From contig JACRNB010000002.1 of assembly GCA_016219425.1 (NCBI GenBank), positions 127,055-191,054 on the forward strand: DNA of 64,000 nt, in the 5' to 3' direction. Of this stretch, positions 1 through 44,414 are shown one piece after another. The notes beneath the pieces were generated by a model. It saw nothing but the letters and a program-made list of their open reading frames with translations, searched no databases and was not told where the DNA came from. A program made the position numbers and the translations under genes. This stretch comes from Betaproteobacteria bacterium (GTDB lineage: Bacteria > Pseudomonadota > Gammaproteobacteria > Burkholderiales > Thiobacillaceae). How positions within the stretch are numbered: position 1 is the stretch's first letter; the number at the start of each line of letters is the position of its first letter.

Positions 1-3000
1 GAAGGACGCCAAGATCAGGAGTTATATTAACCAGTAGATGAACGTTTTCCGGGGCTAATTCGCCCCGGCCTTATTGAAGGCCACCTTCCTCCAAGGCCCT
101 CTTCTGTAGTTCGTTGTTTTCCGGGGCTAATTCGCCCCGGCCTTATTGAAGGGTGTTAGGAATCTGAGTTAGGTTAGGCTCTTCTCCTGTTTTCCGGGGC
201 TAATTCGCCCCGGCCTTATTGAAGGTAGATCGACACGCCGATCTGCTGCGGCGCAATCCAGGTTTTCCGGGGCTAATTCGCCCCGGCCTTATTGAAGGAC
301 CCCCGTCTCCGTCCCAGAAAACGCAGTCTGCCCAGCGTTTTCCGGGGCTAATTCGCCCCGGCCTTATTGAAGGTCCGAAATCGTTCCCGTTGCCAGCGTC
401 CACTACCAGGTTTTCCGGGGCTAATTCGCCCCGGCCTTATTGAAGGAAGAGGCAAGGGAACGGTACGAGATGAGATATCTCGTTTTCCGGGGCTAATTCG
501 CCCCGGCCTTATTGAAGGGGTAATTGGCACCAATTACCTTAACCATTCTACCTGTTTTCCGGGGCTAATTCGCCCCGGCCTTATTGAAGGGCCAATGAAA
601 CCAATGGAGTACAGCCACCTAGGAGTTGTTTTCCGGGGCTAATTCGCCCCGGCCTTATTGAAGGATTCCAACCATGACGCCCAGCGGCTGGCTGTCCGTT
701 TGTTTTCCGGGGCTAATTCGCCCCGGCCTTATTGAAGGTCGACCGTCTGCGCCGTGGTCGGTCGGCTGCCTGGGGTTTTCCGGGGCTAATTCGCCCCGGC
801 CTTATTGAAGCCAGCCTGCGCCGCGAAGCTGCGACGGGCCAGGCTGCCGTTTTCCGGGGCTAATTCGCCCCGGCCTTATTGAAGCTCCGGCCTCCAGGGC
901 ACGCACCCGATAGCGCCGGTCGTTTTCCGGGGCTAATTCGCCCCGGCCTTATTGAAGCATCTCCAGCTGCTCGCCTTCCGGCTCCAGCAGTGCGCGTTTT
1001 CCGGGGCTAATTCGCCCCGGCCTTATTGAAGCCTGGCGGAGGCGGACCCGCGTGCCACCTCCGAACTGGTTTTCCGGGGCTAATTCGCCCCGGCCTTATT
1101 GAAGCGATGGATCAAAAATGAAAGTGATTGCTCAATATGTAGTTTTCCGGGGCTAATTCGCCCCGGCCTTATTGAAGCTTTTCAAGCCTTATGCAGTGTT
1201 GTTCGAAGTTACTGGTTTTCCGGGGCTAATTCGCCCCGGCCTTATTGAAGCGCGGCGCTCGATTGATGCTGCTGATTTTCCGCGCACGGTTTTCCGGGGC
1301 TAATTCGCCCCGGCCTTATTGAAGCGTCTACCCCTTCGGGGGACCAAACGCGAAGAAGGGCGTTTTCCGGGGCTAATTCGCCCCGGCCTTATTGAAGCTC
1401 GAGTACTTCCGCCTCAATCTGGATGGCGTTACCGGGTTTTCCGGGGCTAATTCGCCCCGGCCTTATTGAAGCGGCAGTCGGGGCGGGGTCATTGGCGGCG
1501 GGGGCCTGGTTTTCCGGGGCTAATTCGCCCCGGCCTTATTGAAGCAACCGCCGGGCTTCCTCGCTGCGACGACATTGCCAAGGTTTTCCGGGGCTAATTC
1601 GCCCCGGCCTTATTGAAGCATCGCCTCCAGGCTCATGCCGGCTTCGTGCGGGCAGGGTTTTCCGGGGCTAATTCGCCCCGGCCTTATTGAAGCTCGACGG
1701 TGCAGCAATGCTCCGGGCCATAAAGGTCGTTTTCCGGGGCTAATTCGCCCCGGCCTTATTGAAGCTTGGCCTTGAGGCGCGCCAGCATAGCCGCCAATTG
1801 GCGTTTTCCGGGGCTAATTCGCCCCGGCCTTATTGAAGCACGCCATCCGCGAGGAGCACGGCGTCGACGACGAGGGGGTTTTCCGGGGCTAATTCGCCCC
1901 GGCCTTATTGAAGCAAAATCTGGATGGATGCCGTGACTTTGCGCAGCCCCGTTTTCCGGGGCTAATTCGCCCCGGCCTTATTGAAGCGACATCCAGCTGG
2001 ATGGCGTCAACAAGCAAATCACCGGTTTTCCGTGGCTAATTCGCCCCGGCCTTATTGAAGCCGCGCGCCACCCAGACCATGGAGCTACCCGGAGCGCGGT
2101 TTTCCGGGGCTAATTCGCCCCGGCCTTATTGAAGCGCTGCTCAGGATCGCCGGTAATAATCTGCTGCTGGATGTTTTCCGGGGCTAATTCGCCCCGGCCT
2201 TATTGAAGCGCAATCAGGGCCAGTCGCACCAGTCGCCGGTATTCGGGTTTTCCGGGGCTAATTCGCCCCGGCCTTATTGAAGCGCCATGGGCTGGACCCA
2301 TTGACCGGATGGGGATTGCAGTTTTCCGGGGCTAATTCGCCCCGGCCTTATTGAAGCGCCGTGGCTCTGGTGCGGGAGTTTGGCGGGGTGCTGGAGTTTT
2401 CCGGGGCTAATTCGCCCCGGCCTTATTGAAGCATGTAGACGGTGATCGCTGCGGCCACAGAGATACGCGTTTTCCGGGGCTAATTCGCCCCGGCCTTATT
2501 GAAGCGCGATGTAGGCCTTGGCCAGATCATCGTCCACGCCATTGGTTTTCCGGGGCTAATTCGCCCCGGCCTTATTGAAGCTGGCCAGTCTTGGCAGCGG
2601 CTCATGCGCGCCCCCAGGTTTTCCGGGGCTAATTCGCCCCGGCCTTATTGAAGCGCGCGAGCAGCCGTAAGTTGACGCTGCTGGCCGTGGCGTTTTCCGG
2701 GGCTAATTCGCCCCGGCCTTATTGAAGCCTGGAGTGCCTGACCATCGGCGGCAAGTATTACGAGGTTTTCCGGGGCTAATTCGCCCCGGCCTTATTGAAG
2801 CTCCCAATATTTCTGGTAGTCCTCGGCCAGCGCGTTGTTTTCCGGGGCTAATTCGCCCCGGCCTTATTGAAGCTCAAGTAAAGCTGAAGCAGACCGCGGC
2901 AAGTGACGGTTTTCCGGGGCTAATTCGCCCCGGCCTTATTGAAGCTGCAGCCTATGCGGTCGGGATTCGCGGCGCATGGGTCGGGTTTTCCGGGGCTAAT

Positions 3001-3093
3001 TCGCCCCGGCCTTATTGAAGCGAGTGGAAAGGCGGCGTCGGCGATGTCGAAAGCAAGGTTTTCCGGGGCTAATTCGCCCCGGCCTTATTGAAA
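1..3093 (+). CRISPR. CRISPR array, 42 repeats, truncated at left window edge
   Basis: A 37-nt direct repeat begins GTTTTCC and ends TTATTGAAG plus one variable base. It contains the perfect hairpin CCGGGGCTAATTCGCCCCGG (7-bp arms, 6-nt loop). Repeat starts include 44, 116, 189, 262 and so on to 3058, about 72-74 bp apart, giving spacers of roughly 34-38 nt. Bases 1-5 (GAAGG) are the tail of another repeat, so the array continues leftward. The last repeat (3058-3093) has lost its final bases, which marks the distal end, and the ATTGAAG 3' end resembles the usual 5' handle of type I and III crRNAs. Transcription is therefore probably left to right, with leader and cas genes off the window. Repeats up to 702 end in G; repeats from 775 onward end in C. 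The repeat at 2025 has one G-to-T change at 2033. The subtype cannot be set without cas genes. Confidence 0.98.
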
Positions 3094-3450
3094 ACTGAAG
3101 AACGAAGCCGGCAGGATGCCGGCGCTACAGGGTTTTCAAGGATTGATTTTATGGCTAAGGATACGTTGATTAATTTGTCGTCCTGGCGGAAGCCGTGGCT
3201 CGGTGTTTGATTCCACTGGGTTCCAGTTTTTCCAGAATGACGGATTTTTATTTAATTAGCATCCACATAAGGCGACCTCGAAAACCCTGGATTCGCCCTT
3301 TCTGCGAAAGAGAGAATCCAGTGAAATCAACAACCTGGATTCCCGCGTTCGCGGGAATGACGGGTTTTTCGAGGCGCCCATAATTCCCCCCAACTTCGTT
3401 GAATTTGAATTTTCTGGCAGAGATGGACAAATGCAGGCGAGGCGCCTGCG
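3094..3450. other. Gene-free, repeat-rich interval after CRISPR array
   Basis: No convincing coding sequence is seen in this interval of about 357 bp. It holds a GC palindrome at 3106-3132 (GCCGGCAGGATGCCGGC followed by GCTACAG) that belongs to the same dispersed family as 19169-19234. It also holds an AT-rich stretch, a degenerate relic around 3217-3243 resembling the tail of the element at 3271-3378, and that element itself. At the right end a palindrome (CAGGCGAGGCGCCTG, 3434-3448) abuts the tcdA stop codon and could help terminate tcdA transcription. Confidence 0.7.
3271..3378. mobile_element. MITE-like element with terminal inverted repeats
   Basis: The 108-bp element begins GGCGACCTCGAAAACCC and ends GGGTTTTTCGAGGCGCC, which are imperfect inverted repeats of about 17 bp. 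The pentamer CATAA stands directly outside both ends (3266-3270 and 3379-3383), as expected for a target-site duplication. Inside are two hairpins: CTGGATTC paired with GAATCCAG, and ATTCCCGCG-TT-CGCGGGAAT. The latter resembles short repeats common in Neisseria and other betaproteobacteria. There is no coding capacity, so a transposase would have to act in trans. Confidence 0.65.
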
Positions 3451-5768: not shown

Positions 5769-8231
5769 TTATGCCCGCAGGTAGTCCAGTCCATTGGGCA
5801 GCCAGCGCGCGAGGTGGCGGGTGAGGGCTTCGGGATGCTGGTCCAGCAGTTCCGATGCCGCGTCCCGCGCCGCTTCCAGCAGATCCTGATCCGTCTCCAG
5901 GTCGGCGAAGCGCAGCATGGGCACGCCGCTCTGGCGCGCGCCCAGAAACTCGCCGGGGCCGCGCAGGCGCAGGTCTTCCCGTGCGATGGCGAAGCCGTCG
6001 GCGTTGGCCTTGATGATCTGGAGCCGCTTGCGGGCGGTCTCGGACAGCGGCTGGCCGTAGAGCAGCAGGCAGGTGGAGGCGCGCGCGCCCCGGCCCACCC
6101 GTCCGCGCAGTTGGTGCAGTTGGGCGAGGCCGTAGCGTTCGGCGTGTTCGATCACCATGAGGGCGGCGTTGGGCACGTCCACCCCCACTTCAATCACCGT
6201 GGTGGCCACCAGCAGGTGCAGTTCGCCCGCCTTGAAGGCGGCCATGACGGCGGCCTTGGCATCCGCCTTCATGCGTCCGTGGATCAGGCCGATGCGCAGG
6301 TCCGGCAGGGCTTCGACCAGCTCCGCATGGCTTTCCTCGGCGGCCTTGAGTTGCAGCTTTTCGGACTCTTCCACCAGGGGGCAGACCCAGTAGGCCTGGG
6401 CGCCGCTGCGGCAGTAGTCGTGCAGGCGGGCGACGACTTCGTCGCGCCGGGTGAGGGACATGACCTTGGTGGCCACGGGGGTGCGCCCCGGCGGCAACTG
6501 GTCGATGACCGAGACGTCGAGGTCCGCGTAGTAGCTCATGGCCAGGCTGCGCGGGATGGGGGTGGCGGACATCATGAGGAGGTGGGGCGTCATGCTCCCC
6601 TCCCCCCCCGGGGGAGGGGTTGGGGGTGAGGGAGCAACGGTGACATGCCGCCAGAGGTCTTCCAGCACCGCCTCCGTCTCTTGTAGTACTTGGTTGTTCC
6701 AGTACCGCAGGACATGAATCCCTTTCTGCTTCAGATAACGATCACGCTCGGAGTCCTGCTGTATCTGCTCAGCGTGTTGGCCGCCATCCAGTTCCACCGC
6801 CAGCTTTTTCTCGTGGCAGTAGAAATCGAGGAAATACGGCCCTATGGGTTTCTGGCGCTGGAATTTGCAGTCGGCCAGGCGTCTATCCCGCAGCAGGCTC
6901 CACATCAGGTGTTCGGCGTCGGTCTGGGTTTTTCTCAGGTCGCGGGCGAAGGCCAGGGTTCCTTCTGGGAGCGGGAGGTAGCGTTGCGGGGGGGGAGGCG
7001 TTGCTCCCTCACCCCCGGCCCCTCCCCCGGAGGGGGAGGGGAGAGAGCCTTTGTCCCGTAGCGCCAGGCGCTGGCCTACGCCGAAGCGGTGTTGTTCATC
7101 CACCACCACCAGGGCCAGATTGGGGAAGGCGACGCCGGCCTGGAACAGGGCGTGGGTGCCCACCGCCACCTGCACTTCTCCGGCGGCAATGGCGTCGATG
7201 GCGCGTTGCTTGGCCTTGCCCTTGAGCGCCCCCGCCAGCCAGGCGACGCGGATACCCAGCGGCGTGAGCCATTCGTCGAACTTGAAATAGAGCTGCTCCG
7301 CCAGGAGTTCCGTGGGGGCCATGACGGCGGCCTGAGCGCCTGCCGCCAGGGCGGGCAGCACGGACAGGACCGCCACCAGGGTCTTGCCGCTGCCCACATC
7401 GCCTTGCAACAGGCGGTGCATGGGGTGGGGCGCGGCCAGGTCTTTGCGAATCTCGCTCAGGGTGCGGCGCTGGGCGGCGGTGAGGGGGAAGGGCAGGGCG
7501 GCCAGGAGGCGTTCTCCCAGGCCGCCGTCATCCGCCAGTCGGGGGGCGGAGAGAACTTGGGATTCGCGCGCGCGCAGGCGCAGGGCGAGTTGTTGCGCCA
7601 GGAGTTCGTCGAACTTGAGCCGCTGCCAGGCGGGGTGGGCGCGGGATTCCAGGGCGGCCATGGCGTCCTCCGGCTCGGGCCGGTGCAGGCGTTCCAGGGC
7701 GGTGCGAAAGGGCGGGAGTTGATGGCGCTGGAGCAGGGTCTCGGGCAGGGTTTCAGCCAGATCGGCCTCGTTCAGTGCGCCTGCCACGGCGCGCCCGATG
7801 GCGTATTGGCTGAGCCCCGCCACGGCAGGGTAGACCGGGGTGAGGCGGTCAGGCAGGGGGGTGTCGGGGCGCACCACCCGCACCTTGGGGTGGACCATCT
7901 CGGCCCCGAAAAAGCCGGGGCGGATTTCCCCGAACAAACGCACCCTCGCGCCGGGTTTCAGTTGCGCCTGTTGGCTGGGGTAGAAGTGGAGCAGGCGGAA
8001 GTGGAGGGTGGCGCCGCTGCCTTCTTCCACCTGCACCACCATTTGTGGCCGCGGACGGCGCTGGACTTCGGCATGAGTGATGACGCCTTCCACTTGGACC
8101 ATCTCCCCCAGGCGGGCGTCGTGCAGGGGGGTGAGGCGGGTTTCGTCTTCGTAGCGCAGGGGCAGGTGCAGGATCAGTTCCGCCGGGGTCTTGTAGCCCA
8201 GGCGGCGGGCGATGTCCTGCGCGTCGGCCAT
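5769..8231 (-). CDS. recG: ATP-dependent DNA helicase RecG with in-frame DUF559 nuclease insertion
   Basis: RecG remodels stalled forks and branch-migrates junctions. The protein is 820 residues; without the insert it would be 669, the normal size. The wedge/OB domain occupies about 40-130. Walker A is GDVGSGKT (277-284), motif II is DEQH (378-381), motif III is MSATPIPR after residue 553, and the helicase C-domain runs to about 800. Residues 396-546 are foreign: two low-complexity Pro/Gly linkers encoded by 44-bp inverted repeats bracket a DUF559 domain (about 428-530). Its putative catalytic residues are E440, D469, E480 and D482, with H486 nearby. The insert lies in a loop between motifs II and III and keeps frame. 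Whether the helicase, the nuclease, or both are active cannot be told from sequence. Confidence 0.95.
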   Translation of the reverse strand: MADAQDIARRLGYKTPAELILHLPLRYEDETRLTPLHDARLGEMVQVEGVITHAEVQRRPRPQMVVQVEEGSGATLHFRLLHFYPSQQAQLKPGARVRLFGEIRPGFFGAEMVHPKVRVVRPDTPLPDRLTPVYPAVAGLSQYAIGRAVAGALNEADLAETLPETLLQRHQLPPFRTALERLHRPEPEDAMAALESRAHPAWQRLKFDELLAQQLALRLRARESQVLSAPRLADDGGLGERLLAALPFPLTAAQRRTLSEIRKDLAAPHPMHRLLQGDVGSGKTLVAVLSVLPALAAGAQAAVMAPTELLAEQLYFKFDEWLTPLGIRVAWLAGALKGKAKQRAIDAIAAGEVQVAVGTHALFQAGVAFPNLALVVVDEQHRFGVGQRLALRDKGSLPSPSGGGAGGEGATPPPPQRYLPLPEGTLAFARDLRKTQTDAEHLMWSLLRDRRLADCKFQRQKPIGPYFLDFYCHEKKLAVELDGGQHAEQIQQDSERDRYLKQKGIHVLRYWNNQVLQETEAVLEDLWRHVTVAPSPPTPPPGGEGSMTPHLLMMSATPIPRSLAMSYYADLDVSVIDQLPPGRTPVATKVMSLTRRDEVVARLHDYCRSGAQAYWVCPLVEESEKLQLKAAEESHAELVEALPDLRIGLIHGRMKADAKAAVMAAFKAGELHLLVATTVIEVGVDVPNAALMVIEHAERYGLAQLHQLRGRVGRGARASTCLLLYGQPLSETARKRLQIIKANADGFAIAREDLRLRGPGEFLGARQSGVPMLRFADLETDQDLLEAARDAASELLDQHPEALTRHLARWLPNGLDYLRA
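6594..7046 (-). mobile_element. Nuclease-bearing palindromic cassette inside recG
   Basis: Two 44-bp units lie at 6595-6638 and 7000-7043 in inverted orientation and match at 41 of 44 positions. Each consists of a GTTGCTCCCTCACCCCC arm facing inward and a GC hairpin (CCTCCCCC/GGGGGAGG type) facing outward. Between them is a DUF559 reading frame (Vsr-like PD-(D/E)XK fold). It has motifs TDAEHLMW, FLDF, VELDGGQH and the family-typical VLRYWNN. No ATG or GTG with a ribosome-binding site precedes the domain, so it appears to be made only as part of RecG. The total of 453 nt equals 151 codons. No intein splice motifs are seen. Confidence 0.85.
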
Positions 8232-43460: not shown

Positions 43461-44414
43461 ATGAACCCCGCCGTCCGCGTCCGCGGCCTGGAGAAGCATT
43501 TCCCCCGCGTCCATGCCCTGCGCGGGGTGGATCTGGAGATCGCCGCAGGCGAGTTCTTTGCCCTGCTGGGCCCCAACGGCGCGGGCAAGACCACCCTCAT
43601 CAGCCTCCTTGCCGGCCTCACCCGCGCCAGCGCCGGCAGTGCGGAGATCATGGGCTACGACGTCGTCAGCCAATACCGCGAAGCGCGCCGCAACCTGGGC
43701 GTGGTGCCGCAGGAACTGGTGTTCGACCCCTTCTTCACCGTGCGCGAAAGCCTGCAATTCCAGTCCGGCTACTTCGGCCTTAAACACAACGACGCCTGGA
43801 TCGACGAACTGCTGGAACACCTGGGCCTCACCGACAAGGCCGACACCAACATGCGCCGTCTCTCCGGCGGCATGAAGCGGCGCGCCCTGGTGGCCCAGGC
43901 CCTGGTTCACAAGCCGCCGGTCATCGTCCTGGACGAACCCACCGCCGGGGTGGACGTGGAGTTGCGCCAGTCGCTCTGGGCCTTCATCCGCAGCCTCAAC
44001 CGGCAGGGCCACACCATCCTGCTCACCACGCACTACCTGGAAGAGGCCGAGACCCTGTGCGAGCGCGTCGCCATGCTCAAGGAAGGCCGCATCGTTGCGC
44101 TCGACCGCACCGCCAACCTGCTCAAGGCCGGGGCCGAGCGCCGCCTGGAGCTGGAACTTGACGGCCCCCTGCCGGCGTTTCTCACTCCCCGCCTCAAAGG
44201 GCGCGAGGGCGAACGCTACCTGCTCGACCTGCCCGACTACGGAGAACTGGAAGGCATCCTCGCCGGCCTGCGCGAGGCGGGGGTCACGGTGCGGGAGATG
44301 AACGTGCGCCAGGCTGATCTGGAGGATGTGTTTCTGAGCGTGATGGGGAGGCCCCCCGAGGGGGCTCTTCCCTCACCCCCAGCCCCTCTCCCAGAGGGGG
44401 AGGGGAGCGCATGA
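43461..44414 (+). CDS. YadG-type ABC exporter ATPase with repeat-derived C-terminus
   Basis: The 317-residue ATPase shows GPNGAGKTTL near 37, RLSGGMKRRALVAQ near 132 and VIVLDEPTAGVD near 155. It pairs with the ABC-2 permease downstream; homologous pairs sit in this position in many betaproteobacteria. The substrate is unknown. The last 18 or so residues (ALPSPPAPLPEGEGSA) are encoded by a solo copy of the palindromic repeat found in recG. The stop overlaps the permease ATG as ATGA. Confidence 0.9.
   Translation: MNPAVRVRGLEKHFPRVHALRGVDLEIAAGEFFALLGPNGAGKTTLISLLAGLTRASAGSAEIMGYDVVSQYREARRNLGVVPQELVFDPFFTVRESLQFQSGYFGLKHNDAWIDELLEHLGLTDKADTNMRRLSGGMKRRALVAQALVHKPPVIVLDEPTAGVDVELRQSLWAFIRSLNRQGHTILLTTHYLEEAETLCERVAMLKEGRIVALDRTANLLKAGAERRLELELDGPLPAFLTPRLKGREGERYLLDLPDYGELEGILAGLREAGVTVREMNVRQADLEDVFLSVMGRPPEGALPSPPAPLPEGEGSA
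44365..44407 (+). repeat. Solo copy of the recG-type palindromic repeat at ABC ATPase 3' end
   Basis: The unit CCCTCACCCCCAGCCCCTCT with hairpin CAGAGGGGGAGGGGAG matches the recG right-hand unit at 35 of 38 positions (44370-44407). It is read in the same frame as in recG (CCC-TCA-CCC). There is no nuclease payload. Confidence 0.88.

Follow-up and report, generated by a model that had tools for sequence, protein, structure and literature searches.

We describe a recG gene of a member of the Thiobacillaceae that contains, in frame, a complete nuclease gene of the DUF559 family between two inverted copies of a dispersed repetitive extragenic palindromic (REP)-like sequence. It lies in a stretch of 64,000 nucleotides (contig JACRNB010000002.1, positions 127,055 to 191,054), which was analysed as a whole and is called the window here. 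Arrangements of the same kind were found in unrelated genes across the genus, the order and further genomes, and we think it probable that the insert is a copy of a REP-bounded, homing-like nuclease element, which is translated within host proteins without splicing. The features concerned all lie on the minus strand:

5769..8231 (minus strand), recG chimera of 820 residues, matched by NCBIfam NF008166 with 1015.7 bits in two stretches
6594..7046 (minus strand), inserted cassette of 151 codons with the order REP, DUF559, inverted REP, in frame in the loop between motifs II and III of RecG
6999..7043 (minus strand), outer end at the 5' side of RecG, its hairpin facing out and its GGTGAGGG tail facing in (inverted repeat)
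6595..6639 (minus strand), outer end on the RecG 3' side, the inverse of the other end (inverted repeat)
6645..6953 (minus strand), DUF559 (Vsr-like PD-(D/E)XK / EDxHD-type) nuclease domain, RecG residues 427-529 (Pfam PF04480, E 3.6e-37)
6786..6914 (minus strand), stretch holding the putative catalytic residues E440, D469, E480 and D482 in chimera numbering (alignment)

The DUF559 cassette inside this recG is real. The curated cut-off of NF008166 is 864 bits, and the open reading frame (ORF) is the sole full-length RecG among the matches listed for its own genome, the others being partial (helicase or DUF559 segments). The cassette of 453 bp lies between DEQH and SATP, which we take to be helicase motifs II and III; their spacing is 177 residues in the window and 26-67 in 29 relatives, for which, out of 40 searched, a RecG locus was returned and read. 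None of these 29 carries DUF559 in the loop, so that the comparison with an empty site, proposed in an earlier note on this DNA, does reveal insert-free RecG loops. That note had also described a complete nuclease spliced in frame between the two motifs, whose removal leaves a RecG of 669 residues; the position of the domain agrees with this, and so does the arithmetic (820-151). Two relatives encode palindrome-derived peptides alone at the same site, one in L035 and two in L036 (by reading), and this, together with the natural variability of the loop, indicates a permissive site that also accepts bare palindromes. Repeats of 45 nt could mislead a short-read assembly, but an assembly or prediction artefact at 6594-7046 is scarcely credible, with the frame intact and the same architecture recurring both in assemblies that comprise one to three contigs (G203, G044, G062) and in MetRS, where seven genes from four families show it.

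The two arms, 6595-6639 and 6999-7043, are complementary at 42 of 45 positions (93%), slightly longer than the 41 of 44 of the earlier note, and their inverted-repeat alignment scores 36, compared to a maximum of 11 in 20 shuffles. Each arm is free of stop codons in five of its six reading frames. The impression, given in the earlier note, of an element with inverted ends that looks selfish or domesticated is supported. The end motif is itself a dispersed REP-like palindrome with 75 matches (at most three mismatches) in the 3.1 Mb genome and none for the reversed pattern. By inspection, this type-A REP (GGGGTGAGGG) consists of a hairpin and a tail, and in cassettes the hairpin faces outward and the tail points toward the nuclease. 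Under the strict type-A pattern, 19 of 34 embedded loci have a match on both sides, seven on one side only and eight on neither, the repeats of these eight being divergent or of other types. The inward-facing copy is present on both sides in 18 of the 19 two-sided loci, with L221 as the exception, and some embedded loci hold further type-A copies in either direction. A different set of DUF559 genes is bordered by a second palindrome, type B, which reads CCCCCCTTT..AAAGGGGGG and has the tail GGGGATT. The genome of the window harbors two further DUF559 copies, L179 on contig C16 with type-B ends and L181 on C10 with type-A ends.

Membership in DUF559 is evident from a PF04480 score of 127 bits, the curated cut-off being 20.6, and the Pfam content of the cassette is limited to this domain and an overlapping MTES_1575 nuclease profile, with no transposase domain. 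The four putative catalytic residues, said by the earlier note to be retained, do not vary across the 52 sequences aligned (51 relatives plus the window). An AlphaFold2 model of the domain (mean pLDDT 82) was matched by Foldseek to 3hrl (E 3e-8), to the catalytic domain of the homing endonuclease I-Bth0305I (3r3p; 2.1e-4, TM 0.63/0.75) and weakly to Vsr (0.03); a profile match of DUF559 to I-Bth0305I was obtained as well (1.4e-4). VsrA, a DUF559 protein of Caulobacter, is reported to be responsible for an SOS response in cells that lack a solitary methylase, and has been proposed as an enzyme of very short patch (VSP) repair (PMC12907096).

Embedded copies seem to rely on the translation of their host, since an ATG near the domain start is mostly absent from them (9/34, compared to 75/88 other copies; p 1e-9); nine of 134 rows (L085, L113, L123, L129, L134, L136, L237, L240, L244) were left out of this comparison, and terminal fusions, counted apart, have such an ATG in none of three cases. 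In the window, neither the first six codons of the domain nor the 30 codons upstream contain an ATG, GTG or TTG, in line with the earlier note, which saw no separate start codon. The ratio of nonsynonymous to synonymous substitution (dN/dS) of embedded DUF559 is 0.02-0.24 in eight of 12 pairs, the other four having an undefined dS; the three pairs whose dS stays below 1 give 0.08, 0.16 and 0.24, values near those of the host, and the linkers are looser. The embedded nucleases therefore look to be under purifying selection. Moreover, in seven of seven genomes with a nuclease in MetRS, the MetRS model used for the search has no match above its cut-off other than the chimera. The use of the cassette in frame follows from these arguments of selection and of the sole copy. 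Of the two outcomes considered in the earlier note, the chimera in one open frame is favoured, while removal of the insert at the RNA or protein level appears very unlikely. Removal in the manner of an intron or intein would suit an insert between essential helicase motifs; yet the RecG loop is naturally variable, and the host and nuclease parts of orthologous fusions, in one open frame, both look to be under purifying selection. Among the four Rfam matches in 6300-7300, all below the gathering score, none is an intron, and no intein (Hint) domain occurs among eight Pfam families (E 0.001) or 25 of 46 NCBIfam families; group I/II intron and intein readings were rejected on these grounds.

DUF559 was detected in 13 of the 23 genomes of the genus with 23 matches in total, of which 19 full-length copies, the window included, were read after dropping four weak ones (G004, G009:C101, G019:C5, G012:C71). 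Five of the 19, counting the window, lie in frame within a host recognized by hidden Markov models (HMM), namely RecG, CobT, HsdR, an Eco57I/MmeI-type methylase and YgiQ; no host domain was found for L166, L169 and L176. Within the order, 109 of 399 genomes carry DUF559 (E 1e-10), and 24 of 33 regions picked for long open frames revealed a host protein by HMM, including YgiQ, an AsnB-type amidotransferase, MetRS, HsdM, MnmG, LipB, TatD, PrmC, MiaA, DnaG and an HODM-like protein. Eight of the 33 showed no host domain (L215, L218, L219, L238, L241, L245, L246, L247), and L244, where a PP-loop gene runs into DUF559, was discarded as a fusion owing to a TAG within the DUF559 match; with nine of 33 regions lacking a valid host, the idea that every long open frame is a fusion was rejected. 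In a separate set of 80 DUF559 loci from wider genome contigs, the frame reaches 240 aa or more in 16, and a host was identified in 12 of the 13 tested (HsdR, HsdM, MmeI-like, Eco57I-type and N6_N4 methylases, HisF), L085 having no host Pfam domain and a PglX label in the tree by reading; L123, L134 and L136 were likewise labelled from reading and not by HMM. Interior insertions, with the host profile in two stretches around DUF559, were found in CobT, YgiQ, one LipB, AsnB and MnmG, and terminal fusions in TatD, the other LipB (L243), PrmC, MiaA and HisF. Hosts as diverse as CobT, LipB, MetRS, HisF and AsnB do not support the suggestion of the earlier note that the nuclease targets branched-DNA machinery, and a RecG- or repair-specific targeting was rejected, the host genes sharing no function. 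In two AsnB-type amidotransferase genes (L217, L220), in-frame arrays of several palindromes stand beside the cassette.

The earlier note had further proposed a search for other DUF559 frames with such ends, and these exist on a large scale across the genus, the order and further genomes. Inverted arms scoring at least 18 were found at 30 of the 80 wider-set loci, compared to none of 294 shifted positions within loci (maximum 12), and at 12 of the 19 genus copies, the window included. Among 94 loci, none but the window chosen by frame length and with five of the 80 wider-set loci dropped for lying near contig ends, the sense frame of DUF559 is open for 450 nt on each side in 12, and the other five frames together in one (L168, also open in sense). 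A plasmid search gave three short partial matches only and a phage search two distant ones, so that no vector was found.

A tree of DUF559 (133 rows, 108 columns; one of 134 rows, with fewer than 85 residues, was dropped) places all 15 type-B rows in one clade with an SH-aLRT of 96. The label A or B changes once on this tree, and when type B was shuffled the mean was 14.4 changes, with 0 of 500 shuffles as low. Both types occur in the genome of the window (type A in the window and L181, type B in L179) and in G019, so it is the nuclease, rather than the host genome, that the REP type tracks. At least six net type-A REPs were counted in 55 of 109 genomes with DUF559 versus 18 of 290 without (odds ratio 15.4, p 7e-22, uncorrected for relatedness). 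On a local scale, type A or B REPs lie within 500 nt of 16 of the 19 genus DUF559 copies. The anatomy of the cassette, its partnership with a REP family and its recurrence are thus well supported.

Signs of movement between genes come from the same tree and from occupied and empty loops. The copies in YgiQ and a copy in CobT form one clade of five rows (support 91), in which the CobT copy of the genus stands beside a YgiQ copy of the same genus (89); the notion that YgiQ was entered twice was not borne out. HsdM and HsdR copies from two families are sisters (96). Repeated entry into the same gene is suggested for MetRS, LipB and HsdM (two places on the tree each) and for HsdR (three), many of the forks being weak. 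In the CobT loop of the genus, three stages can be seen by eye, without a repeat (L280), with one repeat (L279) and with a full cassette (L278), the latter two sharing their outer boundaries; L279 may be a locus that the nuclease has yet to enter or one that has lost it. Elsewhere, the CobT loop contains tandem repeat pairs, as in the own genome (L284, C8), or type-B pairs, and the similar YgiQ loop holds a repeat pair in the own genome (L253/L269, C16). The genome of the window consequently has nuclease-free REP pairs in frame in the two loops where relatives have full cassettes. Inspection of the RecG and CobT junctions by eye revealed no target-site duplication, a near-identical empty site for comparison being lacking.

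Taken together, we give an even chance to the broader proposal that DUF559 proteins are dedicated mobility enzymes of whole REP families, each clade knowing its own REP, within a translated, non-splicing homing element that has evolved to live inside proteins and is spread by break repair. In the narrower reading that we consider probable, the insert is one copy of a mobile-element-like cassette, in which a DUF559 gene is bracketed by its own REP-type palindrome in two inverted copies. As the frame used contains no stop codon, conserved proteins can accommodate the cassette in frame in permissive loops or linkers, where it would be transcribed and translated, unspliced, as part of the host protein. 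The nuclease may then recognize its own REP DNA, as hairpin or duplex, and make a nick or break, and repair from a cassette copy would spread the cassette in a homing-like manner. We infer REP recognition, DNA cleavage and copying by repair from the homing-enzyme fold, the matched inverted ends and the element-like distribution. REP pairs without a nuclease would be non-autonomous relatives of the cassette, and copies in conserved genes are proposed to persist because imprecise loss would harm the host gene.

Several observations weigh against this mobile-element reading. Among the loci studied, neither insertion polymorphism between strains nor a target-site duplication nor cleavage was observed, so that movement is deduced from the tree and the loops; 64 of 129 inner branches of that tree are unresolved. 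Since the domain model also matches mitoribosomal proteins without a nuclease annotation (9i05, 7.5e-4), the fold by itself is no proof of DNA cutting. Five of the eight usable dN/dS pairs have a saturated dS above 1. In the wider set, 50 of 80 loci fall under an arm score of 18, many copies look free-standing, and by HMM no type-B copy lies in a gene interior, two (PrmC, MiaA) being terminal. REPs of the own genome lie within a 600-nt open frame in 16 of 30 tested cases versus 47 of 60 random nearby points; coding insertion is hence tolerated, not preferred. The 18 genomes that lack DUF559 yet are rich in type-A REPs (two belong to the same genus) point the same way, and so does the correlation between these REPs and the presence of RAYT (PF01797), the known REP enzyme, which is weaker than that for DUF559 (odds ratio 6.0 for a net count of at least six), as does the frequency of REP-rich genomes among those without DUF559, which is 17/143 with and 1/147 without RAYT. 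The groups in MetRS, MnmG, AsnB and TatD, finally, look vertically inherited.

The last of these points also fits domestication, i.e., a nuclease that once landed and was kept for the benefit of the host, in DNA repair, defence or palindrome protection, and is immobile now. Selection on embedded copies, the many hosts among restriction-modification genes and the roles reported for VsrA (PMC12907096) are consistent with such a fusion. It is nevertheless unlikely in our view, as CobT, LipB, HisF, MetRS and AsnB have no common function, near copies sit in different genes (CobT and YgiQ of the genus, HsdM and HsdR), and loops of sister species have REPs but no nuclease.

The correlation with RAYT raises the question of whether the REPs are owned by TnpA-REP (RAYT) transposases, with DUF559 as cargo. 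Since 17 of the 18 REP-rich genomes without DUF559 carry a PF01797 match, RAYT may play some part. Ownership of type A and B REPs by RAYT was rejected all the same, and a passenger role of DUF559 is quite improbable: none of 31 RAYT loci in the genus has a type A or B REP within 500 nt, and 16 of them have their own unrelated inverted repeats, several with GTAG; the two RAYTs of the own genome lie away from the cassette and have other repeats; among 169 genomes without RAYT, nine of 22 with DUF559 are REP-rich versus one of 147 without; and the REP type tracks the nuclease clade. REP-rich genomes without DUF559, together with a weakly Vsr-like fold, might alternatively speak for a host-encoded guardian that cuts extruded or mismatched palindromes and clusters with REPs by binding, while the REPs spread otherwise. 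We hold this for highly improbable, as it leaves unexplained the inward orientation of the cassette ends (18 of the 19 embedded loci with strict two-sided matches), the recurrence in unrelated genes and the missing own start codons.

Apart from recG, the window contains one more type-A REP, which encodes the C-terminal peptide of another gene:

44370..44408 (plus strand), type-A REP within ORF 43461-44414 (pattern match)

This ORF reads like an ABC transporter ATPase (name by reading) and ends just before the ATG of the next gene at 44411. Other repeats are seen near the start of the window, with a CRISPR-like array at 13-3094 (about 42 repeats of 36-37 nt, GTTTTCCGGGGCTAATTCGCCCCGGCCTTATTGAAG, spacing 72-75 nt) and, next to it at 3195-3383, peptides such as IPAFAGMTG and VIPANAGIQ in six-frame ORFs, which suggest another dispersed repeat family.

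Some features of the cassette are shared with known systems. Rickettsia palindromic elements (RPE) are short palindromes inserted in frame in conserved genes, and in-frame palindromes with uninserted orthologues were likewise found here in the RecG, CobT and YgiQ loops. Inteins with homing endonucleases also place a nuclease in frame in conserved proteins and leave expression to the host; unlike them, the cassette has no splicing domain and the nuclease should remain part of the protein product. Di Nocera 2013 (PMC3733652) describes in-frame intragenic REPs in conserved genes, often as dimers, with no dedicated transposase known for the CGTC class. What differs from RPE and in-frame REPs in our case is a full nuclease between two inverted palindromes, which by inspection carry neither the GTAG nor the CGTC tag and which track the nuclease clade. 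REPtrons, described in that source as a RAYT gene with flanking REPs (PMC3733652), resemble the cassette in having a single gene between inverted REPs and many dispersed REPs and pairs; the enzyme here is a PD-(D/E)XK/EDxHD-like nuclease, with no Y1 HUH transposase between the REPs of the window cassette by Pfam, and the RAYT loci of the genus have different repeats. The predicted fold of the domain resembles that of the catalytic domain of I-Bth0305I, a group I intron homing enzyme with extra DNA-binding regions (PMC3943268), in contrast to the DUF559 of the window, with which no intron or extra domain was found. Sequence family and fold are shared with DUF559 proteins (PRK09767) and Vsr, but VsrA is presented as a stand-alone protein (PMC12907096), unlike the REP-bracketed, in-frame lifestyle seen here.

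In titles and abstract beginnings of the open-access articles searched, no description of REP-bounded DUF559 cassettes was found, and a prior one in preprints or subscription journals is possible. Our results point to the DUF559 cassettes as a kind of mobile element, so far undescribed, that resides within host proteins and is not spliced out. If true, such an element would manage to inhabit essential genes unspliced because it can be read as protein, and would supply the kind of enzyme which coding palindromes of the RPE and CGTC type are said to lack. It would also explain odd chimeras, such as a nuclease within MetRS, RecG or LipB, which could otherwise be read as functional fusions.

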